Part shown: positions 11,622-51,500 of the stretch, piece by piece
Numbering within the stretch: position 1 is the first letter of the stretch
Layout of the letters: each line of letters begins with the position of its first letter
Source of the DNA: Apostichopus japonicus
Taxonomy: Eukaryota > Echinodermata > Holothuroidea > Aspidochirotida > Stichopodidae
DNA: 64,000 nt
Direction: 5' to 3'
Assembly (NCBI RefSeq): GCF_037975245.1
Contig: NC_092561.1
Location: forward strand, 16,747,001-16,811,000
Notes under the pieces: generated by a model
Told to the model about the DNA's origin: nothing
The model's database searches: none
What the model saw: the letters and a program-made list of their open reading frames with translations, nothing else
Translations under genes and position numbers: made by a program

Positions 11622-11737
11622 CTATGTCGCGATCATCGCAAGTGAAACTATTGAGTGTTTGTGTGTGGTGGGGGAGGACTTAGAGGTTATTTATCGTTAT
11701 TGTTGGATTTATTATGGATTATTATGGATTCTAATAC

Positions 11738-12638: not shown

Positions 12639-12654
12639 GGCCCTTAAAAGAGCC
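12639..12654 (-). terminator. Histone 3' stem-loop (H2B, unit 3)
   Basis: Identical copy. The orphan H2B keeps its full 3'-processing signal. Confidence 0.97.
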
Positions 12655-12689
12655 GTTGGATGTCGAGCCTTCTACACGAGAAGAACAAT

Positions 12690-13061: not shown

Positions 13062-13359
13062 TTTGGACGTGAAGTTTTCGTTGCGATACGGTAAGTAAAG
13101 CGATGAGTGAATGAGTGTCCTCCACGCTGCGAAATGTATTTATGACAGATTTGATATCACTTCAGCGAAGCAGAAAAACTTCCCATATTGACAAAGCACG
13201 TGCTATGCATTGCACAGCACACACGAGCTGGCCAATCACAATGCGGAAGCTTTTCTTAATTCTTTCACGCATTGTACGATCAGGGCAAAGGGTGGCAAAG
13301 AATCCCCTCATAAGGGCACTGTGCTGTAGCTTTAGAGTCCGGACTACTTGAATGAGAGC
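13062..13359 (-). promoter_or_regulatory. Truncated H2B/H2A promoter, unit 3
   Basis: The first 298 of the 364 promoter bases are present, keeping all visible H2B motifs. The H2A-proximal 66 bases, with the H2A cap and leader, are missing. Confidence 0.75.
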
Positions 13360-15942: not shown

Positions 15943-17275
15943 CAGCCTGCCTGACTGATTGACTGACTGAATCACTGACTGACTGACTGACTGAATCACT
16001 GACTAGCTGCCTGCCTGACTGGGCTGCCAGACAGACTGTCTGACTGACACAATGACTGACTGATTGACTCACTCACTCACTGCCAGACTGGGCTGCCAGA
16101 CTGACTGCCTGCCTGATTGACTGAATCACTGACTGCCAGAATGACTGACTGACTGCCTGCCTGCCTGACTCACTGCCAGACTGGGCTGCCAGACAGACTG
16201 ACTGCCTGACTGACTCACACACACAATCACTCACTGACTGACTGAATGACTGACTCACACACACACTGACTGACTGCCAGACTAGGCTGTCAGACAGACT
16301 GACAGCCTGACTGACTGGGTTGCCAGACAGACTGCCTGGCTGACTGACACATTGACTCACTCACTGCCAGAGTGGGCTGCCAGACTGGGCTACCAGACTG
16401 GGCTACCAGAGTGACTGACTGACTGACTGACTGCCTGCCTGATTGACTGATTCACTGACTGACTGTCTGTCTGACTCACTGGGCTGCCTGACTCACACAC
16501 TGACTGACTGACTGACTGACTGACTCACACACTGACTGACTCACACACTGACTGACTGCCTCACTAAATGCCTGCCAGACTGACTGGGCTGCCAGACTGA
16601 CATGACTTACTGATTGATTGACTGACTGACTCACTGGGCTGCCAGGCTGACTGACTCACTGGGCTGCCAGACAAACTGCCTGCCTGACTCACACACTGAC
16701 TGACTGACTGACTGACTCACACACTGACTGACTGGGATGCCAGACAGACTGACTGACTGCCTGCCTCACTAAATGCCTGCCAGACTGACATAATGACTGA
16801 CTGATTGATTGATTGACTGACTGACTCACTGACTGATTGGGCTGCCAGACTGACATAATGACTGATTGATTGATTGACTCACTGACTGACTCACTGGGCT
16901 GCCAGACAGACTGCCTGCCTGACTCACACACTGACTGACTGACTCACACACTCACTGACTGACTGCCTGCCTCACTAAATGCCTGCCAGACTGACTGGGC
17001 TGCCAGACTGACATAATGACAGACAGACTGCCTGCCTGACTCACACACTGACTGACTGACTGACTGACACACTGACTGACTGGGCTGCCAGACAGACTGA
17101 CTGACTGACTGCCTCACTAAATGCCTGCCAGACTGACATAATGACTGACTGATTGATTGACTGACTCACTGGGCTGCCAGACTGACATAATTACTGACTG
17201 ATTGATTGACTCACTGATTGACTGACCGACTGACTGCCAGACTGGGCTGCCACTCTGACTGACAGACAGACAGAG
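15943..17275. repeat. CTGA/GACT tetranucleotide satellite with higher-order units
   Basis: About 1.3 kb of degenerate CTGA tetramers interspersed with recurring longer blocks such as CTGGGCTGCCAGACTGACTG and CTCACACACTGACTGACTG. The minus strand yields frames of Ser-Val-Ser-Gln type (SQSVSQSV) of up to 95 codons. These follow from the tetramer repeat being read in three phases and are not genes. Confidence 0.95.
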
Positions 17276-30900: not shown

Positions 30901-33900
30901 GGCATGGTATTTTTTCCATATACTGCAAATAAACTCTAGTGTTCCATATACAAATAGAATAGATTTTCAATGTGATACGAATAGACTCTATTGAGCCTTA
31001 TGATAAAAATACAATCGATTTTCAATGTGATACAAATAGATTTTCCATGTGATACAAATATACTCTATGGAGCCATATGATACAAATTAAGTCTATTGTT
31101 TTAACTTTCTGTTGTAGTTTGCAGATTCCAACCTGACAAATCTCTTTGGACCGGGATCACCTCCGAGTCTGTATGATCCTAACCTCATGTCCCAAAGTGC
31201 CAAGGAGAACATATGGGGTGCAGCTCATGTTGAAAAGGCCAAGACAAAGTCAGCTGAGGATAGTCTCAAGGCGCTACTACACATTGGAGGAGGGCAAGGC
31301 AAAACAGGCGGAGATAGTGCTTGGACGGTAATGTATTGTCTACTTAAAGGTTCAACATTTTATCGTTGAATTTAACATTACAAACTACTATCAGGTATTC
31401 ACACCACCTAGTTTGTTTCGTTGTCTCCATCTGAAACAATGCTGCACCCAATATCAGTTATACAGGGATGTCATGCTGGGCGGCCCCGCCAAGCACTAAA
31501 AATTACCGCCCAGCACCGTCTTAAAAATCGTTTATCCCGCCAAGCATTATTTTCATCACTTCTAACAATATATTCAACATACATTGGGCCTAGTCTATGC
31601 CAAAATCATACAGACTAATAATGCATCAGTTACGCATGCGGGAAACATTGCTTACGGCTCTCAGTCGGTCCCTTCTAAAATCTCTTTCAAACAAACTAAT
31701 AACTTTTACCAGGTAAGTAATATATTTTACTAAAAAAAAAGAAAAAAAAAAAAAAAAAAAAATGCAAATTTTTAGCAAAACTAGTAATTGTGTATGTGCT
31801 GAAAAAGCTACACAAGTGCCAGCATTTGGCATCTGAGCACCTTCCCCCAGGACGGCGATCAGTATACCCGGCACTCAGGAAATCCTGGGCACATCCCTGG
31901 TTATATAACATCAAATACATGTCAATTCACATAAATTAGAATTCATTGAAGGGAATGGATCCTTCCAGGTTCAGCCTCCTTCACAATTTACCGAAATAAA
32001 AAATATGTTGGGAACTATTTTCTTGCAAATCACTACAAGGATTATGAGATGCTGTTTCGCCAGTTTCTTACAAGACTACAGTCATCACTGTCGTTGTCAA
32101 TCAGTTTGAGACAGGGAAGTTTGGGAGATCTGGGAAGACTGCATTGCTATAGTGGCAAGCCAGGCTAACCACTGGTATGGATTTTTAAACAGGATCAATA
32201 AAAATAGATAACAAACTCGCCAGAAATGAAGAAAATGACGGTTTTTGGCCTACTATGGCAGACGGGGGCAATGATTTGATCCAAAAAGGTGTGGCTTTAC
32301 AACACTATGGTGATGTTTGTGCGTTTCAATGATGTTGTGGTACACACAGTTGAGTAGGCTTGTGTATGCTTGGGTGGACTGGAAAGGGATACATGTATGA
32401 TGAAATTTGTATTGTTAACACGGATGAAGTAAGTGTGTTGTTACCATGGGGACAATATGACAGTGGATTAAAGAGGGATAAAGCAGGTTGCAAACTATGA
32501 GGTTCAACCAGGCCCAACAGGAAATCTTTCAACTGTCTCGGAATAATTGTCAAATATTGGATTAATTTTAACTACCATGCTACAGGATTTGGCCGTGTTG
32601 ACCTTTTCTACATTAATTTCTTATTCCACCACAATTACAATGGTTGTATGAGGCAACTAATTCCATGCTGATATGGCAGCCATTGTAGCAGGCATGAAAG
32701 ATCAACAGGCTTGCCAAGCTAACAACAATATCGGGGAGTGTTAGCTCAGTGGTTAACGCTGGTGCCTTCAAATCATAAGGTCCCTGGTTTGAGTCACTCC
32801 AAGATTAATGTATGTCGTCCAGTTACAGACTTGTTGACAATTCATAATCATGGACGTGAAATATGAATCTAAGAGACTGACTTCAGTCAGCTTGCGGCTT
32901 TGATAAGCCAATGAGGCTTCTTTGCGAGTTCCTGCTTGCAGGGCGATCTAAAATAAATACATACATACATACATATTATGAAGAAACTGGCATATTCGCA
33001 CCATACATTCAGTGGCTGGTTTGGTGGTATATAAGTCAGCATTGCTGAAGTCAATCATTGCTGCAATGCACATTTAAGTTTTAAAAAGTCTATCAAGGGA
33101 AATTAGTTTCCACTGGTTACAGAAGAACATAGCAAGTGATGTAAAAGGAATTCCTGTCACGGTAATATCCTGTCTGTACTGGTAATGAAACTGCTCTGTC
33201 TAACACATGGTTTTCTGGGATCAAAGTTAAATAATTATTAAACTTTTTCCAACATGCAGGATCCTTCCATTCTTCAAGCTGTCCCTGGACCAGGACACAT
33301 GCCAGCAAAAGTGATGACCTTAGAAGAAATAGAGCAAGGAGTGAATCACGAAGCTACATCCAACTCTGCAGCACAACCACAACCCATTGGTACTCCACCG
33401 CGAGGGCAGAATATCTCGATGGGTACCCCACAAAGAGGAATGGTCAGTTTCAATATTATTTACTTATGAGATGTTAAGTCTTTTGTAGAGGGGGTAGCAT
33501 GACTGATAATTGGTGAAGATAGGTGTAGCAGACTGGGGCATCAATGAGTCTAGGTTGTTATTATTATAATTCAATGGAAAACATTACAAAATTATTTAGT
33601 CAACTGTGTGTACAAAATATTATACTCGCACGGATTCATGGCTTTTAGACATATTGTAGCCGGGGGTGCAATGCTTTTAAACTGGTGCTCTTTGGAATGA
33701 AGAAAAAAGACAAACTCATCAAAAGCAAATGGCATAGATTCAACTGCACAACATTTACGAATTCTTCATATATGGAACAAAGCTGTAATATTGATTGAAC
33801 ATTATTATCTAAATGATGTTATATGCGATACTCAACAGAAAAGATCCTTGCATTGATAAGAGGGGGTAAAGCAAACAGCAAGTTACTAATCAGGGGGTGA

Positions 33901-36900
33901 TGTATTAATCTAGCAGACACTTAACAGCGGAAAACATTGCACAAGTTACCAAGCCACTTTGAGGAATTATATATCTTGCCAAACATTATCCATGGTGTTC
34001 AACTGAACTTAATTCCTTAACTGTGTGTAGGGCTGTTGCAATGCATACAATAGCTGGTTTCTATATTCCAGGTAATGAAATATAGTTTAGTAAATGTTTA
34101 TGAATCACATTGGAGATGAGTACTTATGTATTGCACCAAATTTAAATATCACTGGTTAATATTATCATAGCAGAACCAGATGCCTGGTGGTGTCCCTGAG
34201 ATGGTTCGGTACTGGACTCAGAAGCTACACCAGATCATGGGAGGACGGGTATCACCGACAGAAATCAGCAAGTTAATAGTTCACATGCACCAGACGAGCG
34301 GAAGAATATCTCCAGATTATCTACATCAGGTGCTCATCAAACGTAAGTGGTTTATCTATTCAGTAGAATACCAATCTGTTCAGAAGGGTTACAAAGCTGA
34401 CATCAATAGATATCTGAGGTATCATCGACTGTGTCAGGCACACTCTTGTACAAAGCCGGTTCGTGTAACGAGTGCTCCATGCTGACTGGGTTAGTTGGAG
34501 TGCTCCATGCTGACTGGGTTAGTTGGAGTGCTCCATGCTGACTGGGTTAGTTGGAGTGCTCCATGCTGACTGGGTTAGTTGGAGTGCTCCATGCTGACTG
34601 GGTTAGTTGGAGTGCTCCATGCTGACTGGGCTAGTTGATGTGCTCCATGCTGACTGGGCTAGTTGATGTGCTCCATGCTGACTGGGTTAGTTCCAGTGAT
34701 CAATGCTGACTGGGTTAGTTGGAGTGCTCCATGCTGACTGGGTTAGTTCCAGTGCTCCATGCTGACTGGGTTAGTTACAGTGCTCCATGCTGACTGGGTT
34801 AGTTACAGTGCTCCATGCTGACTGGGTTAGTTAGAGTGCTCCATGCTGACTGGGTTAGTTGGAGTGCTCCATGCTGACTGGGTTAGTTTCAGTGCTCCAT
34901 GCTGACTGGGTTAGTTTCAGTGCTCCATGCTGACTGGGTTAGTTTCAGTGCTCCATCCTGACTGGGTTAGTTTCAGTGCTCCATGCTGACTGGTTAAGTT
35001 CCAGTGCTCCATGCTGACTGGGTTAGTTACAGTGCTCCATACTGAATGGGTTTTTTCCAGTGCTCCATGCTGACTGGGTTAGTTCCAGTGATCCATGCTG
35101 ACTGGGTTAGTTTCAGTGCTCCATGCTGAATGGGTTAGTTGGGGTGCTCCATGCTGACTGGGTTAGTTGGGGTGCTACGTGCTGAGCGGGTTAGTTACAG
35201 TGATCCATGCTGGCTGGGTTAGTTACAGTGATCCATGCTGACTGGGTTAGTTGGATTGCTCCATGCTGACTGGGTTAGTTGGAGTGCTCCATGCTGACTG
35301 GGTTAGTTCCAGTGCTCCATACTGACTGGGTTAGTTGGAGTGATCCATGCTGACTGGGTTAGTTGGAGTGCTCCATGATGACTGGGTTAGTTCCATTGCT
35401 CCATGCTGACTGGGTTAGTTCCATTGCTCCATGCTGATTGGGTTAGTTCCCGGAATTACCATGGTAGTACCATACATAATATAATTATTATGTTATAATG
35501 AAAGAAAGCTCAGAACAAAGAACATCATTGGCATTCACCGGTCTTGGTCCACAACAAAGATATAGCAAAGCTGAATGTTGTAAATGATCTATACTGGTCA
35601 TTCCCAGCATCAAAATAAATATAACCTGACAGTCTTGGTTTAACTGTGGCGTAGTTAAATGGGTCTGCTCTGATGGTGTGTTACTCCACCGCCACCCACA
35701 CCTACCGAAACAATTACTATGGTAAGATTGACTTGACAAACTTTCAACCAAAATAACGATAATTTGGATGTGATTGCTTGAGTGAACTTGTAACAACAGT
35801 TTAACAAAGACTCTCAGATTGAAATTATACTCAAATAAGAGAGGCTGTTCTCTCCAATTTTGTGGTTATGAAATAAGTAAGTGTTCTCTTGAATGGTTTA
35901 TTAGATGATAGACATATGAAGACTCATCTCTTCTCACAACTTGTAATGTAACTTATTGTTTCAGTTTCTTTCACATTGCATACAAAACATCACCATCTAT
36001 TTTCGGTTCAGGTGCCTCAGTGCGATCACCGATGGTAAATTCCCCAAATTTTGCTCCTGGCACAAGACCGAATATGATGCCTAGATCACCATTCATGCCC
36101 ATGCCATATCCCAACCAGGGGAGAGTACCAACACATCCTCACCAGGGGTCTCCTATGGGCAGAGGTCACGCAATGGGTATTAGTCCCATGGGAAGAGGCT
36201 ACCCTGGAACACCACATCCAAGCTTTGGTTTAACCCCTATGCATCCAAGGATTCCACCCGTTCGGCCATCGACGGACCCTGGTCCTGCAAGGAGGCAGTG
36301 GATTAGAACACCACAACGGTAAATCATATTTCTTATGCAGACACTAATCCCCATAAGAGACAGATGATATTTGCAATCTAAGAGTGACCTGTCGTCCCTC
36401 AATTTGGCAATGTATCACAAAACCGTTTAGGGAGAGCTGCCTTTTGTGCCTGGTTATACATTAGTGTTTGCACAGGTTATCCAGGGAACCTGCCCGACGA
36501 GATACTACCCGGTTCCTAATTTATTACCCGAATCCTACGCAAAGTGTGATTTAAAAAAAAAAAAAAATTGGCAAACCGACGGTAAGGCAGATTTCCCATT
36601 GACTTAGTGTCGTGTTAGGCTAATGAAAGAAACAAAAGCAAATAGAAATTATTGAGGAAGGTTTTATACCTTATCTTGCATGTACGTATTTGAACATGAA
36701 AACATTGTCAGTACAGAATATAATTCATTTATTATAGCATCCAATATGTAATTTCTTGAAATTTGTGATACACGAGGGTAAACAATTTTTTACCCGGTCC
36801 CGATTTTTGCACCCGTGTAAACACTATTATACATACAGACTATGCTTCCAATCAGAATTTCACAGATTCTGGATCTAATGAGCTACGGTTGATACTATCA

Positions 36901-39900
36901 AAGTTACTGTTAATACTAACACAATTATAGGCAATCTTTCTTGTAGAGTGTGATTTATTTGAAAAAATAATTAGAGGTAGAACATCCGATAATCATGAAT
37001 AAAATCAGATTAAAACAACAAAATAAGATGAAACACTAATTCAGACTTGAGTTTTGGTGTTTTACTTTTAGGGGCAGACCAGATGGCAGGTATCCACGAC
37101 CGGGAAGAGATCAATGCCAACCACCGGGGGATGAATATGCAAATTTAATGACACAGAGAGAGAAGGATTGGGTGATCCGTATACAGATGCTTCAATTGCA
37201 AACAGAGAACCCGATGATCTCAGATTATTACTATCAGGTAATTCATTAGGAATATTAAAGTAGATCTTGCATCACAAGAAAATGGCATTAACCCACAGTA
37301 GATACTCTTTCTGTAGAGAACCCAATGATCTCAGATTATTACTATCAGGTAATTCATTATCAATAGTAAAGTAGATCTTGCATCACAAGAAAACGGCAGT
37401 AACCCACAGTAGATACTCTTTCTGCAGAGAACCCAATGATCTCAGATTATTACTATCAGGTAATTCATTAGGAATATTCAAGTAGATCTTGCATCACATG
37501 AAATGGCAGTAACCCACAGTAGATACTCTTTCTGCAGAGAACCCAATGAGCTCAGATTATTACTATCAGGTAATTCATTAGGAATATTAAAGTAGATCTT
37601 GCGTCACATGAAATGGCAGTAACCCACACTACATACTCTTTGTTGCATTACTATCACAAGTAGTCTTTTTTTGCACTGGGTATCCAGGTACCTGCCCGAC
37701 GCAATACTACCCGGTTCCTAATTTATAACCCGAATCATATGCAAAGTGGGATTTTTTTCGGGGGCAGACCGATGGTTAGGCAGATTTCCCGTTGACTTAG
37801 TGTGGAATTAGGCTACCAGGTGGTCAAAGATAACAGCTATTTTGAAGTATTACATGGATATCTTATAACTGCGTCACAATTTCAGCGAATAAACATGGTT
37901 AGGCTTAGCTAGATTTCTCATTGACTTAGTGTGATGTTAGGCTACCATGTGGAAAAAATTGAAAAATTTCTCACAATTATTTTTTATTCATTCGTTTAGA
38001 AAATAGAAGGAAAGGCTGACAAGGAATTTTACGAGATGTTAATGAATTATAGATGGGATAACAAAACAAACTAATCGCAAGTGGCTTTTTACTAATCATT
38101 TATTCCAAATGCGATCAAATTGCGCAAATCACGCAGTCTCGTGGCTAATGTGAACCCTGGGCCTGCATAATAGATAGTAGTTAGTAACAACTGTTTAAGA
38201 GCTAAATTGGATATTTATATGGTCTGATCCAATAGAGGTGGAGAGCACACATAAGCAGTGGCGGCAGTGCGATGTTAGTAGTAATGTTAATTATATGAAG
38301 TTATTGACAAGTTAATGAAAGAATTAAAAGCAAATAGAAACTATTGAGGAAGGTTTCATACCTTATCTTACCCCTACGTACTTGAACATGAAAACATTGT
38401 CAGTAGAGAATATAATTCATTTACTATAGCATCCAATATGTAAATTCTGGAAAATCGTGATACACAAGGGTAAACAAAGTTTTTCCGGGTACCAAGATAC
38501 CCGACGGGTAGCAGCTCTCGGGTGCCCGGTTCCCAATTTTTGGAACCGTGTAAACACTTATTTTGATTTGCTTTGATTGCAGATAATGTTACAGAGAAGA
38601 CAAACTAAGCTGAAAGAAGGAGACAAGGGATCCGATGAGAAGAAGTCTTTAGGAGACGAGAAATTTGGCAGAGGAGATGCGGACGAAAGACGTGGAAAGA
38701 GAGATGGAGAAGATAAAAAGAATAAACTGGAACCAAGAGTTTACAAACCAGGTAGGTACATGATGGGGCAGTAGACTTGGAAGAGTGGGAACATAGCAGG
38801 AAAGTGGGGGTGAGGTGGGGTACATTAGGATGAGTACATTAGTCTTATTGTTGGTAGTGGAGTCCTACAGTCATTTCATATCAATTAAGATGGGACGAAA
38901 CGTAATCAAAAAGGGGGCGTTTATCGCATCTGTATGCTATTATGCATAACTGGTTAACATGCAGTTCTTGCAGCAGGTCTAGCAAAGACTAACCTTTTGT
39001 TATGATCATTTAATTTATGGTAAAGATAATGTGGTGGCACCATGTTACTGGTCCATCATTTTAGGACAACCACGATTTAACATGTGAACAACCGAATTTC
39101 TTTGAGAGGTTGTCTGGGATCAAACAGAAGTAATGTTGGCAAATTTACTTTTGCTATAGAGATAGATAGATAGATATTTATTCAGCCAATCATATAAAAA
39201 TACAATGGAAATTGGTTGATAACAAGAGCTCAAAACATTAAAAATTGTAAACAACAAATAAGACGTATCATAATATACATAGATATGAAAACGTTCCAAT
39301 AAAATAAAAAGATGAACAAAATATAAATGTAACTACAAAATATTAAAGCGAATAAAAATATATAAATGCCCTCATATCCAATATAAAGTCTACAAAGTAT
39401 AAAATTGTTGTATTTGAGTTGTATTTATAATGGTGTTGTATGAGTCTGACAATGACATATTTATTTATCACTGGAAATCCATCCCTCCTCTCATCAAACT
39501 ACCAGAAATCTGTGCCTTTAGTTCTGTTCTATCCAATAAAGACAAGTGGTTGTTCCGACGTCAGTTAATGTCCTGTTTTATGTCCAAACCGCGTGCCGCG
39601 CTCTGAAAAAGTTAACTTTCTGTTGCTTGCAAGTGAAGTTTTCTTCTTGTCGCTAAAAAATGCAGACAGTAATGAAACGTGATACCTTGTTGTCTTTATC
39701 TACACCTAGGATGTCCACCGCTGCTATGTACACTGTGTTGTGGGTATTGTGGGTAGCTGTATGTATTGACTGTACACTAGTGTCTAATTACCGAGGGTAG
39801 CAAGCTGTGTGTATATTTTCTGGGATCGATGGTGGTGTCTGACACTTCTGTTACACCTCATTCGAAACTAGGTCAGATAACCGGCATGAGACGTTTCTTT

Positions 39901-42900
39901 GTGCGCGAGTCTTCACACCCTTTAATGTTAGTATGATCCATTTCTCTTCATCAGCTCAATTTGAAGGTGCCTTAGGTCGGGTAACTTCATCCAGCGTCAA
40001 CAATCCCAGACAACTGATTGATGTCCACAGTATCAGACATGAGGAAGAAGAGGATGTGAGTATAACATTTGGAAATCCGCTCTTTAGTAAGAATGTCGTT
40101 CATTTTTCGCCACTGTCAACTTCTGCACCTTTCTAGCTAATTAGTCTGGAACAATAGCATGCGTGTTACGTAATCGACTCGCCAAGCCTAGCGAGCTTGG
40201 AAAAGTAACTTCCTCGGCTCACATTACCAGTGATCTACCGCGTGAGCCAAATAAAATGCCCGAGGCAAGGGAAACTGTTCTGGCAGTGGTATTTAAGGGC
40301 GAATTTTCAATTGTAGAACCATCAAGTTCCAGCTACATTTATATAGTCTTGTAGTCAATCCAACCGTACATACAAACATAGAACCATCAACCTTTAGCTA
40401 CATTTATATGACTTGTAGTCAATCCAACCATACATACAAACATAGAACCATCAACTTTTAGCTACGTTTATATGACTTGTAGTAAATCCAACCATACATA
40501 CAAACATAGAACCATCAACTTTTAGCTACATTTATATGACTTGTAGTCAATCCAACCATACATACAAACATAGAACCATCAACTTTCAGCGACATTTATA
40601 TATTCTTGTAGTCAATCCAACCATACATACAAACATAGAACCATCAACTTTCAGCAGCATTAATATATTCTGCTAGTCAATCCAACTATACCAACAAGAG
40701 CACTTGTGTTGTTAGTATGAAGATATACTGTTGAGAAAAATGAATATACCACATGGCTTCAGAATGATTATTCTTAGAGTGTTTTTATTTCAATCAATTA
40801 AGGTTTCAGTTTGCAATCTCTTGAGATATTCACATAACAGGAGAGAGTAACACTGGGTGGTTTGGTACATTACAGTTATTTCGTGATGAACTGATTGTAA
40901 ATGTATGTTCTTTCAGGCAAGCAAGGCCAAGGACCATGGTAAGAAGAGGAAGATTCTTCTGTCCATTGAACGAATGTATGATGTTTTCTTGAAAGCTGAC
41001 GATGTAGCAATTCAACTTAACGGCCTCCCAGAATCAGACACTGGTGCCCTCTTGGAAAAACGACAGCAGCTGTTGAATGACTTGTATAAGTCTTTGCAAC
41101 TGGAAGAAGAACCAACAGAAGAGTGAGTAGCATGAAATAAACAATATGGCAGTATAAATAATAATGTTTATGTTTGTATGTATATTAGATCCCCCTGCAA
41201 GCAGGTACTCGCGAAGAAGCCTCATTGGCTTATCCAAAGCCGCAAGCTGACCAAAGTCAGTCTCTTACATTCATATTTAACGTCCATGATTATGAATTGT
41301 TAATTGTCAACAACTCTGTAACTGGACGACATACATTAATCTGGGAGTGACTCGAACCGGGGACCTTATGATTGAAAGGCATCAGCATTTACCACTGAGT
41401 TAACACTCCAAGTGTCTGCAAATGTCTGCAGGAAACTCGAGTTACTTTACAAGAAATCATTATTGAAATGATTGCTTCAATTAGCCAAATCGTTCCCTGA
41501 AGTGTATGAATACAGATAAAGTACATTGTTAGTGGTAGGATCTTTCTCAAATGCAGCTCAAGAATTTGAGGAGGTGTTTGAGGCAGTTGTTTGACAACTT
41601 CTTCAGCATATGATAAAGATGACATTTGGGTTAGTGTCTCCCTTTAAGAGTCAGGCTCCTGTAATAAACATGGAGAAGCAAGGATGGATGGAGCTATTGA
41701 AGGAGGAAAGAAATGATTAACTACCAACGTCAACTACCGTTCACAGCACCTATGAGCGGGTATTGGCTGTCCATTGAAAGCAGCATTGCAATAAATTTGT
41801 ATCAGAAAGTTATTGAAAATACCTAGTATGTGTAGTCTTAGCTTTGTGTCGTGAATTGCCACTGTCAGCTTTTAACTGGTTATGGTGTCATTGAAATGTC
41901 TGCAAACATTAACATGATTGACATACATTGTTAGTTGGTTGCTATTGGTAACATCACAACAAAGTATCTTATTTTTCACATCTTTATCAATTAATGTTAC
42001 ATTAACAATTATCTGTGTATACAATACTTTAATGCAGTTTCAGAAACCATTTAATAATTAATTGTCTATGGTTATCTCATCAATTAGTTGCAGCAGCCAT
42101 GAAGTGCTATTACAGATCCTATCGGTCAGGAAAGGCAGGAAGTTGCTAGCAAGATTACTGCCTCTGCTCTCACATCAACAGGGAAGTCTTATCGTCGACG
42201 TGGTAGCTCTTCATCTGCTCACAGTATTGAAACGAGAGTCAGCAGATATCAAGAAAGGTGCCTCTGAAGGAGTCCCTCAAGAAGAGGTAAGTCTAACAGA
42301 AACCACACCCCTGATCCCCTTATCCTTTAGGCTCTCATATTCTACTCAGGGTCTCACCTAGTCACAGACCTGTCTGGAATAAGTTCAAATATAACAACTT
42401 CACAGACTATTGTAGGTTGTGTTACCGAATGGGTAAAAATAAGACACAGACATGTCTGCAGGGAATCATTTATGTATGTATGTATGTATTGTATGTATGT
42501 ATTGTATGTTTGTATGTATTGAATGTACTATATGTATTGTATGTATTTTAGATCCTCCTGTAAGCAGGAACTCGCGAAGAAGCCTCATTGGCTTATCAAA
42601 GCCGCAAGCTGACCGAAGTCAGTCTTTACATTCATATTTAACGTCCATGATTATGAATTGTCAATTGTCAACAACTCTATAACTGGACGACATACATTAA
42701 TCTTGGAGTATGGCAGTATCCAGTATGGTAGTGCAAAATGCTTTACCAACTGGTTAAGATGCTTTACAATTACAAATATGTATAGCAGTGTTGCTGCATA
42801 GGAACTATAGTATTCAATTAGAGAAATAATTAGTTCCTTGGATATTGCTACACAAAATTTGATTGCTCAATCATACCCGGGTATGCGTTGAATGAGATTT

Positions 42901-45900
42901 TCATAACAACTCGCTAGCGTTGTGCGGGATCTCGGTAGTCAAGTGAATCCCAGTATCCCAATCTTGGTATTGACTAACCCCGATCACAAAGTAATGTGTT
43001 AATACTACTGGTAGTGGGAAAACAACATGTTATTACATTCGTTTCGGTATCATTCCCGGGAATCTGGGACATAATAAAAAATATCTACGTGGTACTATTT
43101 GAAATAAAGAAAACAAATCTTTATTTCTGGTTTCTGTGTTCTTAGTTTTAATAATATCGGATCAATTTACGTCCTGGCCTAGACCTATATATTAACGAAT
43201 GGACTGTTCACGTAGTAATTTGGACCTAGGCTACACCAACGTTACTTCGGCTCAGCATGTTGCAGGACCTCAAAGTTATTCTGAAATTTTCGTTATTTAT
43301 TCTTCCTTCAAACGATGATTGTGAAAGTTCCCACGTACAAAATGTTTTCCTTATGTATTTCACCTGATTTTTGTATAATAATTATACAATTTAACAAATT
43401 TTAAGCCAAACCCGCAGGGAGTAAATCCAGTTTAAATCCATCTTCGCCTGGGACTGTATATTATTATAGCCTAGGGTACGGTACTGCTACACACAGTGCA
43501 GTACGGTACTTGAAATTTGATGCTGTAATGGAATGGATTCGTTTATTAATGCAGGGGTTCCACAATGTCATTTATAGTTATCTTTGGCTACTTTTTTAAT
43601 TTGAAGGACTTTTGTACAATAGATGGATATTTTACTAATTGAAAGCATATTTTGTGGAGAAAACAGCAGCCAATTAACGATATAAATACATCTGTACTAT
43701 TCTCATATATATAGGTTATAATCCTGTATTTACGTAGCCCCTATGTTACTTTCTTCTTGTCTGAAAGTTCCAAACACGTGGTGACTTGTTGATAGTTGAA
43801 AACTTTTCATTGTGAACTTTTAAACTTGAAGGGTTGCCCTATTCCTATATCATGGTAAAGTGGGGAACCCCCAATTTCTGTTTGTGTACGGATTACAAGT
43901 TTAAGCCACGTGTGAATGTGTTAATCTAATATCGTACGTCGAGTATGAATGAAGGATGGTGTGAGTTGCTTTTTCCCCAAGGTTTGTGCTTTTCTTTTTG
44001 AAAGTGTATGTTAAAAAACAAAGGCCCTAATGTAGCGTGTTATTTTTGGGGGGAGGGGGGGTTTTATAACCCTGCGTGTAAGAGTGTGTACATAGCCTAG
44101 GCTATGCATATTGAATGTATGACATTGACAGTCTCGTAACTAAGTGCTTTCAACCGTAGATGAAAGTTGAGGAAAATCCCGGTTGTAGTTACGATACCCG
44201 GATTCATGTTGCAACACTACAGGTTGTGTGAAATTTGCACTACCGCACAACGCTACAACCCACACAGATTGATTATGCTCTCTGAGGTTTGACAATACTG
44301 AGAATTGTGTAACTGCTGCCATTGTTTATAGTGCTTGTCAACTGACCTAGTTTGGACTGAAACAATCAAAGAACACATCAAGATTGGTTCATTTTTAATT
44401 TTTTTCAAATCATAGTATCTACTGTATTCAGTTAGGGGTAAAGTGATCAGCAGTTATAATGGGGATAATCTATCATCTACAATTTCAAATTTCAAATATA
44501 ATTATGATGAAGATGAAAATGAATGAGAGCATTTTAGGACTTATAGTCACAATCATTTTGTGTTCATATGACTTGAAGGCAGTGTTACAATTATAATAAG
44601 AAGACAACCTGGGTGTGTTATATTTAAAAATTCTAGGAAAAGGATTAGTGTGGACTGATTAGTAGTACTAGGAGGACAGATCGGTAGGGTTAGGGTAGTA
44701 GTAGTAGTTTTACATTTATTTGGAGTAACATTCATGTAGCTACTGATCTAATGTTGTTCATCGATAAGCCACACCAAAGAGCAAAAAGATGTTTACAAGG
44801 TTAACATGTCCGCTGTGGTTTCAGAGCAATAACGATTATTGTTAATGCTTAGTAATTTTACTGTAACAAACATCAGTCAGTAATTATACTGTAACAAACA
44901 TAAAGAACATGTTGGCTGTGGTTTCAAAGCAATAAAGATTATTGTTAATGCTTAGTAATTATACTGTAACAAACATACACTCTTAGTCATTGTATTGTTT
45001 TATTGTTTTCAGACATTGCCAATTCTCTTTCAATCAATAGCTAACATCATCAATTGTTTGTATTCTTTCATTGTTTCAGACATTACCAATTCTTTTTCAA
45101 TCAATGGCTAACATCATCAATTGTAAGACTATGGCTGAGGTGCTCGGTTTGGCCAAGAACATGACAGAGAACACTCCACTGCCCCAACAAGGGCTACCAA
45201 ATGTCACTGGTGCTATTCAACACAAAGTAAGTCAATGTTTGTTACAGTGATACCATAATTCTTCTGAAACTGCATTAAGTTTGTTAAGTCAGTGTGGTGA
45301 CTCCGGTATGAGAGAACCACAAGAAAATACAATAACACTGAGGTAGCTGGTTTAAGCACACGTCTATTCAATAGGATAACTGTAAGGCAAGTGGTGAGAT
45401 ATATACCAGGGTTTTCGTTAGTAGCCGGGACCTGGGTCAAATGACCCGCTTACTGCACGTACATGACCCGGCTACTTTGCGACGCTCAGTAAAAAAAAAA
45501 AAAAAAAAAAAAAATTAAATTAAAAAAAAAAAAAAATTTAAATTTAAAAAAAAAAAAAAATGAAAAAAATCGAGAGGAATAAATACCCACAACCAGGTCA
45601 GGTGTGATTGAAACTGTCACAGCAGTTAACTGTTGGTAAAAACTACAGGAAGTTGAACATTAGTAGTATGGTCGAGGAAATGAGGCCGAGGGGTGGGTAA
45701 GAGTAGAGGTAGGCGAAGGGCTTCTCTTGACATACAAATTGTTGCTCAACAGAGATAAAAGCTGAATAAAAAACAGAAGGTTCTATCACAGACCCAGTTG
45801 GGTATTTTTGGCAGTAAAATCCTACTCACTTTGTAGGTACCGTAGACCTATTATCATTTTGTTATGATCGCACTTCATTTAATGCAGCAAGTGCGTCACA

Positions 45901-48900
45901 CCCTTGCTAAGTTCGGTTCAGTGGCATAGCTACCTCCCTAGGCTCCATGACCCGAGTGTTAATAAAAAAATTCAGGAGAAAAAAAGAAAAATAGGAAAGA
46001 AGAAAGGGGTGATTGGGAAGGGGCAATATCATTAACCAAACAACTGTATATTGCACCATTTTGCATCTAGAGACTTTTTAAATTGCAATTTTCCGGCAAA
46101 GGGGAGGGGGGACACCCTCCCCTTAGACCCCTCCCTCATGTCCGCGTACAGACAGTCCCGCCTACTTTTCAACTTGACCCACCTACTTCATTTCTTAACA
46201 AAAACCCTGTATACAAGAATGGATGAAGCCTGGTGACGTATATCAACATAGCGTAGGCTGGGGAGTCAGCCGTTTGGTGTGATGACAAACAATTAATATG
46301 AAACTATAATCTACTACAGTAAGGCAGTAGGCTGTTTCATATGTATGTTGAGAAGGGGAAGGGGAAGCAGTGAACATGGTGGGGGTGATGGGAGTGGGGA
46401 GGAGTTGGGTGGGGAACATAGAAAACAAACTTGAAGGGGTGGCAAGATACAACTTATGTTGGAATTGTTGCAAGAGTGTGGCCTTAATGAAATAATTTCT
46501 TATGGTCTGGTATGTTACAGTTAGTCTGTTAAGAGACAACTGTCACAATGTTCTATAGACAGAAACTCACTAGTTAGGTTTCCTAACACATGAACTGAGT
46601 CTCTAACCTATGCACTAGAGTTTGTCTTATACAGTAACTCACTAAAAGAGAGCTTCCTAATACCTATCAACTGAGTCTCTGACCTATGCACTAGTTTGTC
46701 CTATAAACAGTTCCTCACTATTTAGGTTTCCATTACACACGAACTGAGTCTCTGACCTATGCACTAGAGTTTGTCCTAAACATAAACGCAATAAAAGAGA
46801 GGTTTCTAATACCCTTGAACTGAGTCTATACACTAGAGTACTATACTGGCTATATATTTCTCAATCTCTGTCCATCACACTTGATGTTACTTCTTTTGTG
46901 GAGAATTTGTATCAAGAAATATCTGATCATAGAATTTAAGACTGCTGTGAACAATTAATTAAAAAGTTATTCATAAAGACAGCAAGTCTAACAAATGTTT
47001 GGCAAGCGTGCCAAAAAATTACATGTTTGGACAATTGTTGACAGGACCCTACCCAACACCGCTAAGTGGAGGTCAGCTTGTAGGAGTCACTCTAAGATAA
47101 GGGTGAACAGTTGATGAGGGAATTCAGCATACTAGGTTGAGGAAGACGGAAGTTATTTTTGGAAATGTTCAAGTTCTTGAGATGTTCAGGGATATTTCCT
47201 CAATGAATTGCGGCTAATGAAGTCCATGTGATGTTGTATTTTGGTGACTATTTGGGTCGTTGTTTCTTACAGTTTGGACTCTCTGTTATCCTGTGTGCCC
47301 TCAGCCGTGCTGAGGCACTTTTCTCAAGTACAACTGCCAAAGACTTGGACCCAGCTATTATACAAGAATGGTAAGTACAAGCTGCCAATTTAATACTCAA
47401 GAGGATTACTAGTTATGTTATGTTATCTCAATATCATCATTTATCATCGGTGAATTCTTCTTACAAATCAACTACATCCTCTGAAAGTAGTTGAAATATA
47501 TAATGATGGAGACAAGATGGGCTCTGTGGTTCCCATTTTCAGAAATGCTTTCTCTAGGTTCATACCATGATATGATTTTAAATTAGAGGTGACAGAATCA
47601 ACAGACATGGATGTAACATCAAAATGTGCACTGACTTTATTGTGCATGACTTTGTATGTGGATATACTAACATGTGCTTATAACGAAGGACTTGGTTATG
47701 TATGTACACTAGCACCATATGTACCCACACTGCATGTGAACACTGACTACATGCATACACTAAGTTTGTGTCTACTATGACTCTGTTATATATGTACAAT
47801 AGCACCATATGTACCCAAACTTCATATGAACACTGACTACATGCATACACTAAGTTTGTGTCTACTATGACTCTGTTATATATGTACACTAGCACCATAT
47901 GTACCAAAACTTCATATGAACACTGACTACATGCATACACTAAGTTTGTGTCTACTATGACTCTGTTATATATGTACACTAGCACCATATGTACCAAAAC
48001 TTCATATGAACACTGACTACATGCATACACTAAGTTTGTGTCTACTATGACTCTGTTATATATGTACACTAGCACCATATGTACCAAAACTTCATATGAA
48101 CACTGACTACATGCATACACTAAGTTTGTGTCTACTCTGACTTTGTCTTGTATGTACACTAGCACCATATGTACCCAAACTTCATATGAACACTGACTAC
48201 ATGCATACACTAAGTTTGTGTCTACTATGACTCTGTTATATATGTACACTAGCACCATATGTACCAAAACTTCATATGAACACTGACTACATGCATACAC
48301 TAAGTTTGTGTCTACTCTGACTTTGTTATGTATGTACACTAGCACCATATGTACCAAAACTTCATATGAACACTGACTACATGCATACACTAAGTTTGTG
48401 TCTACTATGACTCTGTTATATATGTACACTAGCACCATATGTACCAAAACTTCATATGAACACTGACTACATGCATACACTAAGTTTGTGTCTACTCTGA
48501 CTTTGTTATGTATGTACACTAGCACCATATGTAACCCAACTTCATATGAACACTGACTACATGCATACACTAAGTTTGTGTCTACTATGACTCTGTTATA
48601 TATGTACACTAGCACCATATGTACCAAAACTTCATATGAACACTGACTACATGCATACACTAAGTTTGTGTCTACTATGACTTTGTTATGTATGTACACT
48701 AGCACCATATGTACCAAAACTTCATATGAACACTGACTACATGCATACACTAAGTTTGTGTCTACTATGACTCTGTTATATATGTACACTAGCACCATAT
48801 GTAACCCAACTTCATAAGAACACTGACTACATGCATTCACTAAGTTTGTGTCTACTATGACTTTGTTATGTATGTACACCAGCACCATTTGATCCCCAAC

Positions 48901-51500
48901 TTGATAACAACACAGACTGCAGGCATACACTGTGTTTGCTTGTTTCATGTCAACACCTTCTTCATGTGTTCACAGACTTCATGTGTACTCTGAAGACATG
49001 TGTATTGAAATTACATGCACATCCCGAGTTATGTCTTCTGTGTGTGCAGGGCCAATAGTCCCTAAACTTTGTGTACAATGATTGAATTTTTGCAACAACT
49101 TTGTTCATTGCGTTTGTGTGCGAAGATTGCTTTGTGTGCAAAGACATTTGTGTGTTCATGATATGATTGAGTAGTTCAGTATGTCTTGATTCTCTTAAAG
49201 GTGATTGACTTGCATGGGATCATGGTACATGTTCATATAAATCACAAACTACATACTGTAAAGCAGACAAGTATGATTGATTTTGATGGAATCATGTGAC
49301 ATGTTCATATATATCACAAACTACATACTGTAAAGCTGACAAGTCTGGTTGACTTTGATGGGTTCATGGGACATGTTCAAATAAATCACAAAGTAGACAA
49401 GTTTGGTTCGATTAGAGTTAATCAAAGTTCTGTCAGCTCCTTCTCTTCATTATTTTGACATAAGTTCTGCTGGTGTAAGACAGACTGTCATTACTTAGAT
49501 GAGAAGAAACCATCATATATGGTAAATGGATCTGCTATCTATAGTAGTGGCCCCTCTTCATTTACCTTGATCTTTTCTTTCTTGTTATTTCCTCTCAGGG
49601 CTCAGTGTGTAGATGTGTTCGCTAACGCCATTTGTGAGATGCCGAACACGAGCATTGCAGAGCCTCTTCTCAAGTTTCCACAATCTCTGGAACATTTCAA
49701 ACACTTTGTTAGCAAGCAATCATTTACAGTGCTAGAGGGTAAATTAAGGTAAGGATTTATCTTTCTTTCAATATTTTCAGGGGGAAGTAAAATCTGCTTT
49801 TACAATAGTGTACTTGTTATTGTTGTAGTTATTGATTTTCACTGCCAGTACATGTATGTTAAGGTGAAAGTATTCGATTTCACACTGCAACACACTCAAG
49901 GGAATATAACAAGTTTTTATGGGCTTCTAATATTGACAGGATAGTTAGGATTTGTCCCACAATGGTAATATTGGATTGTTTTATGTTTGTTGTGGTTCTG
50001 GTCACACATTGCCATGTTGCCACCTTATCAGTGTATCATTGAAGGAGATGAATTAGACTGTGACACGCCCAGTGTATTTGTTTGCAAATTATTCAGAGAA
50101 AGTGAGTAAATTCAATTTATAATGAAAATCTTATTGATGTTTTTGGGAATATTGTTTGGCTAAAGGATATTGGAGAGCAAAGAGCTGAGAAATAGTGAAA
50201 ATTCAGACTTACTGGATCAAAGTTAGAAGGCTAGATTAGATTTGCCTTTGTAATGAGAGGGCTGCAACCTCCGACTGAACTACTCTGTGTAAAACCAACA
50301 CATCTCTAGTTAGTAAACTATGAACAGGTTAATGAAATAAATGATCCTTTTTTTGGATGCAGGTTAACTTTTCTAATTGTTTGCTTTCACAATGTGTATA
50401 TGTTATATTGTTTGCTTTCACAGTCTATGTATGTGATACAAAGACAATATCATCTCCATACTAAATAACTCTCTTAGTTGTTTACTTGTACAATATAAAA
50501 TGAATATGTGAAAACTTGTTTCATACAATGTGACTTCATTGACAAACAGACTGTTGAATTACCTAATATAAAAGGATTCAGTCAGAATATGACTTGGTCA
50601 TCACTATTCACCATTAAGGTAGCATACGCCCATTAAAAGCCCCATTGACTTACACACTAAATCACAAAAGTAATGTGGTCTTTAATTCTAGATAGAAGTT
50701 TTCACTAGCTAAACGTTACCCATCACCGGATAGCTGACAAGTTGGCCTTTCATGGCACCATCAATTTTCCATATCATGACCATGTAGATTTTTTGCTATC
50801 CGAGCCGGAAGTTTTCGTCACTTGTAAACAAACCTCTTCACTCAGTAGTAAACAATTTTTCTATGCTGCTCCTGGGAGGCCTAAAGGGGTCTAAAATTGC
50901 CTCAATTGACCAAATTTTCTCAACACATGTACTTCCATTCATGCTCTTCAACATGCAAGCCACAAAAAAATAGACCATGATTGATAACAGGTCAACAAAG
51001 ATGTTCTCCTGCTGCTTTTTTGAACTTTTCCTGAAGGAGAACAATCGAGTCGATGGATATAGACTCTAATAGGAGTATGCCACCTTAAAGGTAACTCTAT
51101 AAGGCCTCCTGAATAGGCTAGATCGACAAGAAATGGTCAGCTATGATCGATGTACCAGCCTTGCTCTTCAGACTACTGCTTCTGTGAGTAAGCATTGAGC
51201 CAGAGATTTCATGACTGCATTAATTCACACAACTGAGGAAGATAAGCATCAGTGAAAATTTTTTAGAATGATGGAATCATTCAACATTTCAACTGATAAT
51301 AAATATTTTGTCACCAAATGCTGCAGAAATCAATGAATAAAAAATTATAAGTAGTTTGTGTGCAAGGCCCCCTACATGTACTTAAGGTTTTTCATATGTT
51401 CATTTTGATGTGTGTGTTTACTGGATCAAACCCTAACATTTATGTCTTTTCTGTTCTTTCAACCAGACCAATAACAGAAGAAGAAGAGAGACCGAGTTAA
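27817..51500 (+). CDS. PATL1: PATL1 (Pat1) orthologue, decapping activator, 16 certain coding exons
   Basis: Scaffold of cytoplasmic mRNA decay. Pat1 proteins bind DDX6/Dhh1 through an N-terminal DETF motif, and LSm1-7 and Dcp2 through a C-terminal alpha-helical domain, and act in P-bodies. Sixteen exons splice in phase with GT/AG borders, about 828 codons including the stop (vertebrate PATL1 about 770). Order: acidic N-terminus with DETF (27880-27891), a Pro/Met/Gly-rich middle, the hallmark [13 protein letters not shown], then [20 protein letters not shown] and the helical C-domain ([30 protein letters not shown]). The C-terminus ends at TAA (51498-51500). No frame breaks. Paralogue PATL2 is not distinguished but is vertebrate-restricted as far as I know. 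Introns are large and repeat-filled. Confidence 0.95.
27985..28190 (+). repeat. Dispersed repeat R2, copy 1
   Basis: Shares GTGCCCAG-ATTTCCTGAGTG, CCGGGTATACTGATCG and GATGCCAAATGCTGGCACTT with the complement of 31785-31899. The CAGAGATG start corresponds to the CAGGGATG end of that element. The far end is not recognised. Confidence 0.75.
28168..28216. repeat. Perfect 14 bp inverted repeat
   Basis: TTGCTAACAATATA (28168-28181) and its complement (28203-28216) around a 21-base AT-rich loop, at the end of the R2 copy. Confidence 0.85.
29242..29381 (+). CDS. PATL1: PATL1 exon 3
   Basis: Joins as ...[20 protein letters not shown], matching the DDDWQEAHERLAELEEK region of vertebrate PATL1. Phase 1 to 0, donor GTAAAC. 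Confidence 0.9.
30057..30161 (+). CDS. PATL1: PATL1 exon 4
   Basis: [20 protein letters not shown], 35 codons, phase 0 to 0, after TTTCATAG and before GTATTG. Acidic region. Confidence 0.85.
30319..30455. repeat. Foldback repeat, 63 bp arms, with hammerhead-like core
   Basis: Arms 30319-30381 and 30393-30455 are complementary at 61 of 63 positions around an 11-base spacer. The minus strand of the left arm contains CCGAAGA, a GATCC-TGCTA-GGATC stem, then GAAACGTC. This order resembles the hammerhead core (CUGANGA, stem II, GAAA) with one mismatch. Penelope-like elements are known to carry hammerheads in their terminal repeats. The right arm has stem II weakened by one change. Confidence 0.8.
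30960..31110. repeat. Degenerate short tandem repeat
   Basis: Several imperfect units of GATTTTCAATGTGATACAAATAGA type just before exon 5. Confidence 0.6.
31118..31327 (+). CDS. PATL1: PATL1 exon 5
   Basis: 70 codons after [27 protein letters not shown] then [20 protein letters not shown]. The DPNLM-SQ segment corresponds to DPAIMRAVQ in vertebrates. Phase 0 to 0. Confidence 0.9.
31463..31899. mobile_element. 437 bp element with CAGGGATGT ends (R2 family)
   Basis: CAGGGATGT at 31463-31471 and its complement ending at 31899, flanked by GTTATA on both sides (31457-31462, 31900-31905), a probable target duplication. The right half is repeat R2 (31785-31899), inverted relative to 27985-28190. 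A long A tract sits at about 31732-31762. Confidence 0.7.
32733..32976 (+). mobile_element. tRNA-derived SINE, copy S1 (full length)
   Basis: The head GGGAGTGTTAGCTCAGTGG...GGTTTGAGTCACTCC carries A box (32740-32752), B box (32786-32796) and a GGAGTG/CACTCC acceptor-like pairing. An unrelated body of about 140 bp and a CATA tail follow. Copies S2 and S3 share body and tail. Confidence 0.9.
33260..33442 (+). CDS. PATL1: PATL1 exon 6
   Basis: 61 codons after ACATGCAG, phase 0 to 0, donor GTCAGT. Contains [11 protein letters not shown] and PIGTPPRGQ; the latter matches PIGTPPKQ in vertebrates. Confidence 0.9.
34171..34342 (+). CDS. PATL1: PATL1 exon 7
   Basis: Reads [20 protein letters not shown] then [20 protein letters not shown], ending phase 1 at AAAC|GTAAGT. 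The CAGCAG-type start leaves two possible acceptors one codon apart (34171 or 34174). Confidence 0.8.
34469..35449 (+). repeat. 28 bp minisatellite in PATL1 intron
   Basis: About 35 units of GTGCTCCATGCTGACTGGGT plus TAGTTGGA/TAGTTCCA/TAGTTACA. The central block is conserved, and variation is concentrated in the last four bases, falling into GGAG, CCAG, ACAG and TCAG classes. Confidence 0.97.
36012..36318 (+). CDS. PATL1: PATL1 exon 8
   Basis: Phase 1 to 2, 307 bp. Low-complexity Pro/Met/Gly/Arg region ([40 protein letters not shown]), as expected for the disordered middle of Pat1. Ends ACACCACAACG|GTAAAT. Confidence 0.9.
36462..36826. mobile_element. hAT-like element, copy B (365 bp, internal deletion)
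   Basis: Same TAGTGTTTGCAC / GTGTAAACACTA ends as copy A. Flanked by a perfect 8 bp duplication TTATACAT (36454-36461, 36827-36834). The middle of the family sequence is missing. Confidence 0.9.
37072..37237 (+). CDS. PATL1: PATL1 exon 9
   Basis: Phase 2 to 0. Contains the family hallmark [20 protein letters not shown], near-identical to YANLMLQREKDWVSKIQMMQ of vertebrates, then [11 protein letters not shown] before GTAATT. Its last 32 bases are repeated three times downstream with flanking intron. Confidence 0.95.
37206..37645 (+). repeat. Four 110 bp tandem copies spanning exon 9 end and donor
   Basis: Units begin at 37206, 37317, 37428 and 37538. Each carries AGAACCC(A/G)ATGA..TATTACTATCAG, the GTAATT donor, about 70 bp of intron, and ends CTCTTTCTG(T/C)AG, a good acceptor. 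The last is truncated and reads GAGCTC for GATCTC. Confidence 0.95.
37661..38559. mobile_element. hAT-like element, copy C (about 899 bp)
   Basis: Interior aligns with copy A along its length (CCCGACGCAATACTACCCGG, GGCTACCAGGTGGTCAAAGA). The left end is altered (TAGTCTTTTTTTGCAC) and no target duplication is seen. Its right end lies 24 bp before the start of exon 10. Confidence 0.8.
38583..38751 (+). CDS. PATL1: PATL1 exon 10
   Basis: Charged linker [20 protein letters not shown] ... LEPRVYKP, matching the KLEHAYKP segment of vertebrates. Phase 0 to 1, donor GTAGGT. Confidence 0.9.
39159..39430 (-). mobile_element. Probable LINE 3' end with TATC tail
   Basis: The minus strand reads ATTGTATTTTTATATGATTGGCTGAATAAATATCTATCTATC, a 3' UTR-like end with a tetranucleotide tail, typical of truncated non-LTR elements. 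No coding part recognised; the 5' limit is approximate. Confidence 0.45.
39955..40055 (+). CDS. PATL1: PATL1 exon 11
   Basis: Joins as [29 protein letters not shown], matching [22 protein letters not shown]. Phase 1 to 0, donor GTGAGT. Confidence 0.95.
40066..40310 (+). repeat. Dispersed repeat R1, PATL1 intron copy
   Basis: Near-identical to the complement of histone spacer 5615-5863. Starts only 10 bases after the exon 11 border. Confidence 0.9.
40315..40690 (+). repeat. Tandem repeat of about 64 bp, six copies
   Basis: Units begin AGAACCATCAACTTTTAGCTAC and include AGTCAATCCAACCATACATAC. Adjoins the R1 copy. Confidence 0.95.
40917..41122 (+). CDS. PATL1: PATL1 exon 12
   Basis: [29 protein letters not shown], matching KRRKTLVIIEKTYSLLLDVED. 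Start of the helical C-terminal half. Phase 0 to 2, donor GTGAGT. Confidence 0.95.
41167..41411 (-). mobile_element. tRNA-derived SINE, copy S2
   Basis: Complement of S1 in full: GGAGTGTTAACTCAGTGG head with B box GGTTCGAGTCAC, body and a TATG/CATA tail at its 3' side (41167-41190). Confidence 0.9.
42094..42286 (+). CDS. PATL1: PATL1 exon 13
   Basis: Using the AG at 42092-42093 gives [21 protein letters not shown], matching DDHFVQIMCIRKGKRMVAR. Phase 2 to 0, donor GTAAGT. The second AG three bases on would drop one codon. Confidence 0.93.
42472..42709 (-). mobile_element. tRNA-derived SINE, copy S3, head missing
   Basis: Has the long TATG tail (42472-42547) and the body, but stops at the base after the B box region of S1/S2. 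The tRNA-like promoter head is therefore absent, a 5' truncation of the usual kind. Confidence 0.88.
45013..45057 (+). pseudogene. PATL1: Duplicated start of PATL1 exon 14 (decoy)
   Basis: TTGTTTTCAG acceptor followed by ACATTGCCAATTCTCTTTCA, a 67 bp-offset copy of the true exon 14 start (45080). If used, the frame would run into the second copy out of phase and stop at GGC TAA. Five or so substitutions separate the two. Confidence 0.85.
45080..45226 (+). CDS. PATL1: PATL1 exon 14
   Basis: 49 codons: [20 protein letters not shown] ... [11 protein letters not shown], matching the LLRQLMNLP ... HLTAVLQNK part of the C-domain. Phase 0 to 0, donor GTAAGT. Confidence 0.93.
45407..46209. mobile_element. 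803 bp element with CAGGGTTTT-GTTA ends
   Basis: CAGGGTTTTCGTTAG at the left; the complement of the right end reads CAGGGTTTTTGTTAAG. Flanked by TATAC on both sides (45402-45406, 46210-46214), a possible 5 bp duplication. Contains large A tracts (45490-45560). No transposase frame. Confidence 0.65.
46551..46840 (+). repeat. Tandem repeat of about 75 bp, four copies
   Basis: The anchor AACTGAGTCT recurs at about 46592, 46668, 46741 and 46817, with CTCTGACCTATGCACTAGAG between. Confidence 0.9.
47273..47370 (+). CDS. PATL1: PATL1 exon 15
   Basis: [20 protein letters not shown], matching FGLSLLLILLSRGEDLQSSD of vertebrates. Phase 0 to 2, donor GTAAGT. Confidence 0.95.
47760..48950. repeat. 90 bp minisatellite in PATL1 intron 15
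   Basis: About 13 units of 90 bp (for example TTCATATGAACACTGACTAC at 48001, 48091, 48181) with few substitutions. Because the period is a multiple of three, one minus-strand frame stays open for 456 codons (47578-48948). Confidence 0.97.
49202..49403 (+). repeat. 72 bp tandem repeat, three copies
   Basis: Units start at 49202, 49274 and 49346 and share ACATGTTCATATAAATCACA. The last is shortened. Confidence 0.93.
49599..49748 (+). CDS. PATL1: PATL1 exon 16
   Basis: Joins as [21 protein letters not shown] ... [20 protein letters not shown], matching the FSRYVDRQKLNLLETKL end of the vertebrate protein. Phase 2 to 2, donor GTAAGG. Confidence 0.94.
50618..51084. mobile_element. 467 bp TTAA-flanked MITE
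   Basis: Ends GGTAGCATACGCCCATTA and (complement of right end) GGTGGCATACTCCTATTA, 15 of 18 identical. TTAA lies at 50614-50617 and 51085-51088. TTAA duplication fits piggyBac or Kolobok. Its ends differ from the element at 20694-22155, so it is a separate family. Confidence 0.8.
51467..51500 (+). CDS. PATL1: PATL1 exon 17, C-terminus
   Basis: After TTCTTTCAACCAG reads [11 protein letters not shown] then TAA. A short acidic tail instead of the vertebrate QLVQGIR end. Acceptor and phase (2) fit exactly. Confidence 0.85.

Follow-up and report, generated by a model that had tools for sequence, protein, structure and literature searches.

We report that the PATL1 gene of the holothurian Apostichopus japonicus carries, across the end of one of its exons, a tandem array of four head-to-tail units, each of which contains a copy of the donor of that exon. 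The array lies in a window of 64,000 nucleotides (the whole stretch of DNA that was analysed) and recurs elsewhere on the same contig in a second genomic copy, in which features that could have given the additional units a function have decayed. Most likely, the array is a near-neutral minisatellite of the type termed 'mirage', laid over an exon edge and normally spliced out.

Anatomy of the PATL1 gene and its boundary arrays

The array-bearing gene belongs to the PAT1 family and is PATL1, as had been proposed in a preliminary description of this DNA. The 11 mapped exons (33260–49748, forward strand) give a single uninterrupted reading frame of 629 codons when joined, a partial map in that the first and last exons of the gene lie outside it. 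The translation matches PF09770 (PAT1) with E=3.1e-21 (75.9 bits, cut-off 25) and the C-terminal structure of human PATL1, 2xeq, with E=1.4e-22. A Pfam search with the array-bearing exon alone returned no family; on the whole window, Rfam gave no matches and ARAGORN no genes. That exon had been labelled exon 9, a designation that is not established: it is the fourth of the 11 mapped exons, and its junctions with its neighbours are open in the 629-codon frame in both genomic copies.

The array spans positions 37203–37644, in units of 111, 111, 110 and 110 bases. TRF reports 4.0 units of 111 bases (37203–37641, score 766) with 93% matches, and a match of this order in four copies is not due to chance. 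Each unit combines 35 nt from the exon side, the last bases of the exon, with 76 nt from the intron side. Because the donor that follows the exon end at 37237 falls within the array, the tandem repeat spans the exon–intron boundary of a protein-coding gene. The authentic boundary lies at the edge of the array: unit 1 is continuous with the exon, and units 2–4, which we denote extra modules, lie inside the 1,345-nt intron (37238–38582). The motif TATCAG/GTAATT is found in 4/4 units of the window, with the GT at 37238, 37349, 37460 and 37570. At every unit–unit join an acceptor-like site, CTTTCTGYAG/AG, is created, in the form CTTTCTGTAG/AG before unit 2 and CTTTCTGCAG/AG before units 3 and 4; the 3′ end of unit 4 passes into the single-copy intron sequence CTCTTTGTTGCATTAC, which contains no acceptor. 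Coordinates and TRF agree on this anatomy, confirming the array and its modules as earlier described at this exon end.

The same description held that each module offers two acceptor readings, and their products are borne out by translation. Splicing at the first AG would give a 32-base exon that shifts the frame and reads QRTQ* (3/3 modules of the window); splicing at the second AG would give 30 bases in frame and add ten residues per module. When the two genomic copies are taken together, the in-frame reading is open in 6/6 extra modules, the first AG is present in 6/6 and the GT in 8/8 units, and the QRTQ* stop is found in 5/6, module 3 of the second copy being the exception. The copied decapeptide represents residues 266–275 of the 629-residue model and falls within the PAT1 profile match (residues 244–591).

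Table 1. Positions of PATL1 exons, array units and other features of the window
Feature	Positions	Strand	Remarks
Histone-like genes	1-13359		tandem units of 5,758 bases
CTGA array	15947-17244		degenerate, ~1.3 kb
PATL1 exon	33260-33442	+	mapped 1st
PATL1 exon	34174-34342	+	mapped 2nd
PATL1 exon	36012-36318	+	mapped 3rd
PATL1 exon e6	37072-37237	+	mapped 4th; 166 nt, ends in phase 0; acceptor ttttacttttag, donor CAG/gtaatt
Unit 1	37203-37313	+	end of the real exon (CAGAG AACCCG...), its donor at 37238 and the 76 nt of intron that follow
Unit 2, extra module	37314-37424	+	exon-like 32 nt 37317-37348; in-frame 30 nt 37319-37348; donor 37349
Unit 3, extra module	37425-37534	+	exon-like 32 nt 37428-37459; in-frame 30 nt 37430-37459; donor 37460
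Unit 4, extra module	37535-37644	+	exon-like 32 nt 37538-37569; in-frame 30 nt 37540-37569; donor 37570
PATL1 exon e7	38583-38751	+	mapped 5th; begins IMLQRRQ in phase 0
PATL1 exon	39955-40055	+	mapped 6th
PATL1 exon	40917-41122	+	mapped 7th
PATL1 exon	42094-42286	+	mapped 8th
Second PATL1 boundary array	44990-45124	+	TRF; two 67-nt units over acceptor and first bases of e11
PATL1 exon e11	45080-45226	+	mapped 9th; acceptor inside second array
PATL1 exon	47273-47370	+	mapped 10th
Minisatellite	47695-48938		90-bp unit, 13.8 units
PATL1 exon	49599-49748	+	mapped 11th

We compared the splice signals of the modules with those of the gene itself. On a scale built from donor frequencies, the module donor CAG/GTAATT, to which the true donor of the window is identical, scores 4.77, no worse than 5/10 other mapped donors (range 2.31–7.87), and the true donor of the second copy, GTAAGT, scores 8.79. 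The first AG is preceded by 10/16 pyrimidines, compared with 8–14 at ten real acceptors, a range from which the acceptor of e5, the third mapped exon, is excluded, and with a background in which 182/450 intronic YAGs reach 9 pyrimidines. A branch-like TAAC motif is located 25 nt before the first AG in 6/6 mini-introns, and two further AGs (CACAG and TAG) stand between the two. The second AG stands in a GAG context, 2 bases after a CAG or TAG. The mini-introns between modules would be 78–79 nt long, compared with 731–2793 nt for the ten mapped introns. Introns this short, exons of 30–32 nt and the unfavourable context (GAG) of the in-frame acceptor all speak against use of the modules; since the module donors are no worse than half of the real ones, low-level inclusion may occur.

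PATL1 contains another boundary array, at the acceptor of exon e11, which is also present in the second genomic copy. It places a copied acceptor before 45013, 67 bases upstream of the real exon start, and use of this site would lead to a frameshift and a stop. Tandem arrays form 11 rows in mapped PATL1 and occupy 3,865 of its 16,489 bases (23%), and 2/22 exon edges fall within them. Random placement of seed units reached at least two edges in 15.7% of 20,000 simulations, in which the edge of the third mapped exon (36012) was set 10 bases low; two boundary arrays thus need no special cause, and we rejected the idea that arrays gather preferentially at splice sites. The 90-bp minisatellite downstream leaves the minus strand open for 463 codons; its unit length is a multiple of three, which by itself keeps the frame open, so that the frame does not point to a gene.

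A second genomic copy and probable drift among the modules

The exon and array recur at C1:21071562-21072204, 4.29 Mb away on the same contig, with 96% identity. Compared by BLAST with 70 kb around this second copy, the window is colinear over nearly its whole length, in long pieces that are mostly 90–99.9% identical, and each side has insertions of kilobase size; a probe taken at 17.000 Mb finds its match at 21.300 Mb with 99% identity, and a histone repeat with units of 5.76 kb stands at the start of both genomic copies. Identity between the two forms a patchwork, in which stretches of 98.98% (4,503 bases) and 99.9% (1,116 bases) within C1:21034001-21104000 stand in a 90–97% background. The degenerate CTGA array of the window differs in structure between the copies. 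The histone-like genes at the start of the window are, judged by eye, presumably H2A, H2B and H3, and probes at 16.3, 16.5, 16.6 and 16.65 Mb of the contig fall in the same repeat at 99.67–100%. In another part of the assembly, contig C29 holds pieces of mitochondrial DNA in several places, 98.6–99.6% identical to the mitochondrial contig C35 (which carries COX1); these are either nuclear copies or a mis-assembled mitochondrial contig. Translation of the C35 COX1 recovers the expected residues only under code 9, the echinoderm code (11 AAA codons and 7 AGA or AGG codons), and the genes run cox1-nad4L-cox2-atp8; on the ground of this code, a lancelet and a sponge were rejected as hosts.

Judged from these comparisons, the second copy is probably a haplotype that was left uncollapsed and put into the same scaffold, the alternative being a true segmental duplication. 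Passages of the paper on the published A. japonicus assembly report PacBio HiFi reads and the use of Hifiasm, and the terms 'purge' and 'heterozyg' are absent from its main text (PMC10344927). Both copies look functional, because over 629 codons they differ by a dN of 0.0034 against a dS of 0.041, with no stop in either. The second copy also holds four array units, which indicates that the array had formed before the copies diverged.

The two arrays have nevertheless changed in detail. The true donor is GTAAGT in the second copy as against GTAATT in the window, the exon end being otherwise unchanged, and the donor is GTAATT in all six extra modules of the two copies. CCG in both true exons (units 1) corresponds to CCA in the six extra modules, and the last units of both copies have CACACTACATAC in common, in place of the CACAGTAGATAC of the other six units; these shared forms bear on the homogenisation of edge units, at sites too few for a tree. 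Within the second copy, TGT replaces TGA in module 3, so that the reading from the first AG becomes QRTQC, and AGAA replaces AGAG in module 4, with loss of the second, in-frame AG.

The pattern of change gives little sign of selection on the modules. Variable columns among the six extra modules number 4/35 in the exon-like part and 12/72 in the intron-like part (Fisher P=0.57). Between paired modules, 10/211 intron-like sites differ, as do 4/105 acceptor-plus-exon sites, where 1.2 would be expected at the real-exon rate (P=0.036); across their 90 coding bases, replacements number 2 (in the copied 10-mers, I to S and I to F) and silent changes 0, where 0.26 replacements would be expected at the gene's dN (P=0.029), in tests that are weak because changes are few and because units are assumed to pair by position. 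We rejected a coding-type constraint on the modules. Small as the numbers are, the changes lean to drift rather than to the keeping of either product.

Origin of the modules and competing explanations

We propose that tandem duplication of a stretch of about 111 bases straddling the donor of the PATL1 exon, followed by amplification, produced the four units. The acceptor-like site of each extra module would be a by-product of the unit join, to which the intron would contribute a pyrimidine stretch (CTCTTTGTTGCA in the single-copy flank) and the exon CAGAG, their fusion giving CTCTTTCTGCAG/AG at a putative point of junction. The single-copy flank CTCTTTGTTGCATTAC lacks an AG, the exon reads TTGCAAACAGAGAACCC and the joins read CTCTTTCTGCAGAGAACCC, a comparison that points to the duplication itself as the most likely source of the acceptor; the observed joins would follow if the copies met through the shared CA and GTTG was slightly altered to CTG. 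We infer that splicing normally runs from the first donor (37238) to the distant acceptor at 38582 and leaves the modules in the 1.3-kb intron, with little consequence for fitness. Where a module is used on occasion, the first AG would mostly be chosen, and the frameshift would result in an unproductive mRNA.

This account has to be weighed against two functions suggested in the preliminary description. One was a built-in nonsense switch; on this reading, regulated inclusion of a 32-base module would put a stop in PATL1 mRNA and lower its level via nonsense-mediated decay. The stop is indeed met from the first AG in 3/3 window modules, this AG is the better-placed acceptor, and the donor and pyrimidine scores are inside the range of real sites; however, any frameshifting insertion would do as much, so the stop is not specific evidence, and it is lost in 1/3 second-copy modules, where TGT has taken the place of TGA. 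With exon-like and intron-like parts equally variable and with flanking introns of 78–79 nt where the ten mapped introns are at least 731 nt, such a switch appears quite unlikely. Poison cassette exons are known from SR-protein genes, and the PATL1 modules would resemble them as short optional exons with a stop; they differ in that they carry no sign of conservation and in that one second-copy module has lost the stop. The other suggestion, a repeat of a conserved Pat1 segment, holds in so far as the copied decapeptide lies inside the PAT1 match, but is not supported as a designed repeat. For one to three in-frame microexons of 30 bases to add copies of this segment to the conserved Pat1 region, splicing would have to use the second AG, in its GAG context two bases after a CAG or TAG, and that AG is lost in 1/3 second-copy modules. 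The 10-mers differ by replacements only, and although their frame is open in 6/6 extra modules, this is to be expected of any 30-base copy of coding sequence, which leaves a cassette for protein diversity very unlikely. Together, the TGA and the in-frame AG lost from modules of the second copy, and the restriction of codon changes between paired modules to replacements, argue against both proposed functions.

Fainter again is the likelihood that the array is kept as a backup or decoy, its extra donor and pyrimidine copies recruiting splicing factors to a weak exon edge. The true donor of the window is the weaker GTAATT, and in the second copy GTAAGT is confined to the true donor, which would suit such a role; yet the second copy, with its strong donor, keeps the array too, and no constraint is detectable beyond neutral drift. 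That the array or its unit number is an artefact of assembly or sequencing seems barely credible, even though mis-assembly of short tandem arrays does occur and the region is present twice in the assembly: the same four units stand at two places, each with different point changes, and PacBio HiFi reads, as reported for the published A. japonicus assembly (PMC10344927), easily span 440 bases. Unlikely, though with a real chance of being right, is the idea of a nursery of exons and introns. A single donor-straddling duplication would here have built complete splice modules, with branch-like motif, pyrimidine tract, AG, open 30-base exon and GT, whose low-level use in vivo would yield +30, +60, +90 and +32 PATL1 products that differ between haplotypes. 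On this reading, and if such arrays prove widespread in the genome, as their occurrence twice within PATL1 suggests, echinoderms no less than lancelets would draw a steady supply of nascent exons from tandem duplication.

Relation to known boundary repeats

Passages of PMC3087553 describe amphioxus 'mirages' as tandem repeats across exon–intron boundaries, in Adh3 and in two globin genes, BflGb6 and BflGb9; many of the units bear AG/GT signals, and RT-PCR suggests undisturbed splicing; in the model put forward there, mirage units become exons or introns. In lancelet PGBD5, repeats of 2 × 60 bp and 3 × 108 bp lie at splice sites, Adh and troponin C being cited alongside, and the repeat modules were once annotated as exons by gene prediction, according to passages of PMC3902484. 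The PATL1 units resemble mirages, whose reported units range from tens to about 160 bases, in that they straddle a splice site and carry AG/GT; the donor-side array is like those reported for BflGb9 and for the 3 × 108 bp repeat of PGBD5, and the acceptor-side array like that of BflGb6. Resistance of edge units to homogenisation is reported for mirages; at PATL1 the sites that bear on it are too few for a tree. In contrast to the lancelet mirages, the PATL1 arrays are found in an echinoderm, with donor and acceptor arrays in one gene. BflGb6 haplotypes are reported with 6 and 3 units, whereas the PATL1 array has 4 and 4 in its two copies; length instability between haplotypes, as reported for BflGb6 and Adh3, is thus not seen at PATL1, and because it is reported for some mirage loci only, we do not count it as required.

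The array also recalls intron gain by tandem duplication, as in ATP2A1 (Hellsten 2011) and potato RdRp (PMC4974935), in that it provides new GT/AG signals and a potential 78–79-nt intron. Duplication of an exonic AGGT segment, however, involves an exonic unit and an unchanged peptide. The PATL1 unit, with 35 nt of exon and 76 nt of intron, straddles an existing exon edge, and its use would alter the protein, by ten additional residues or a frameshift. Among the literature matches listed (for example, the best 20 of 80 and the best 20 of 319), none reports a boundary-spanning minisatellite in an echinoderm, which is weak evidence of absence.

The PATL1 array is a known kind of structure, of ordinary origin, in a new branch of animals. 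Passages of PMC3087553 present mirages as peculiar to lancelets and as a source from which new introns and exons may be made; two boundary arrays in one echinoderm gene suggest that the process is not confined to cephalochordates. The locus offers a natural test bed, as the same array occurs in two copies with differing donor strength (GTAATT and GTAAGT) and differing module mutations, so that splicing could be compared between the two. It also calls for caution in gene prediction, in which such modules could be annotated as exons.
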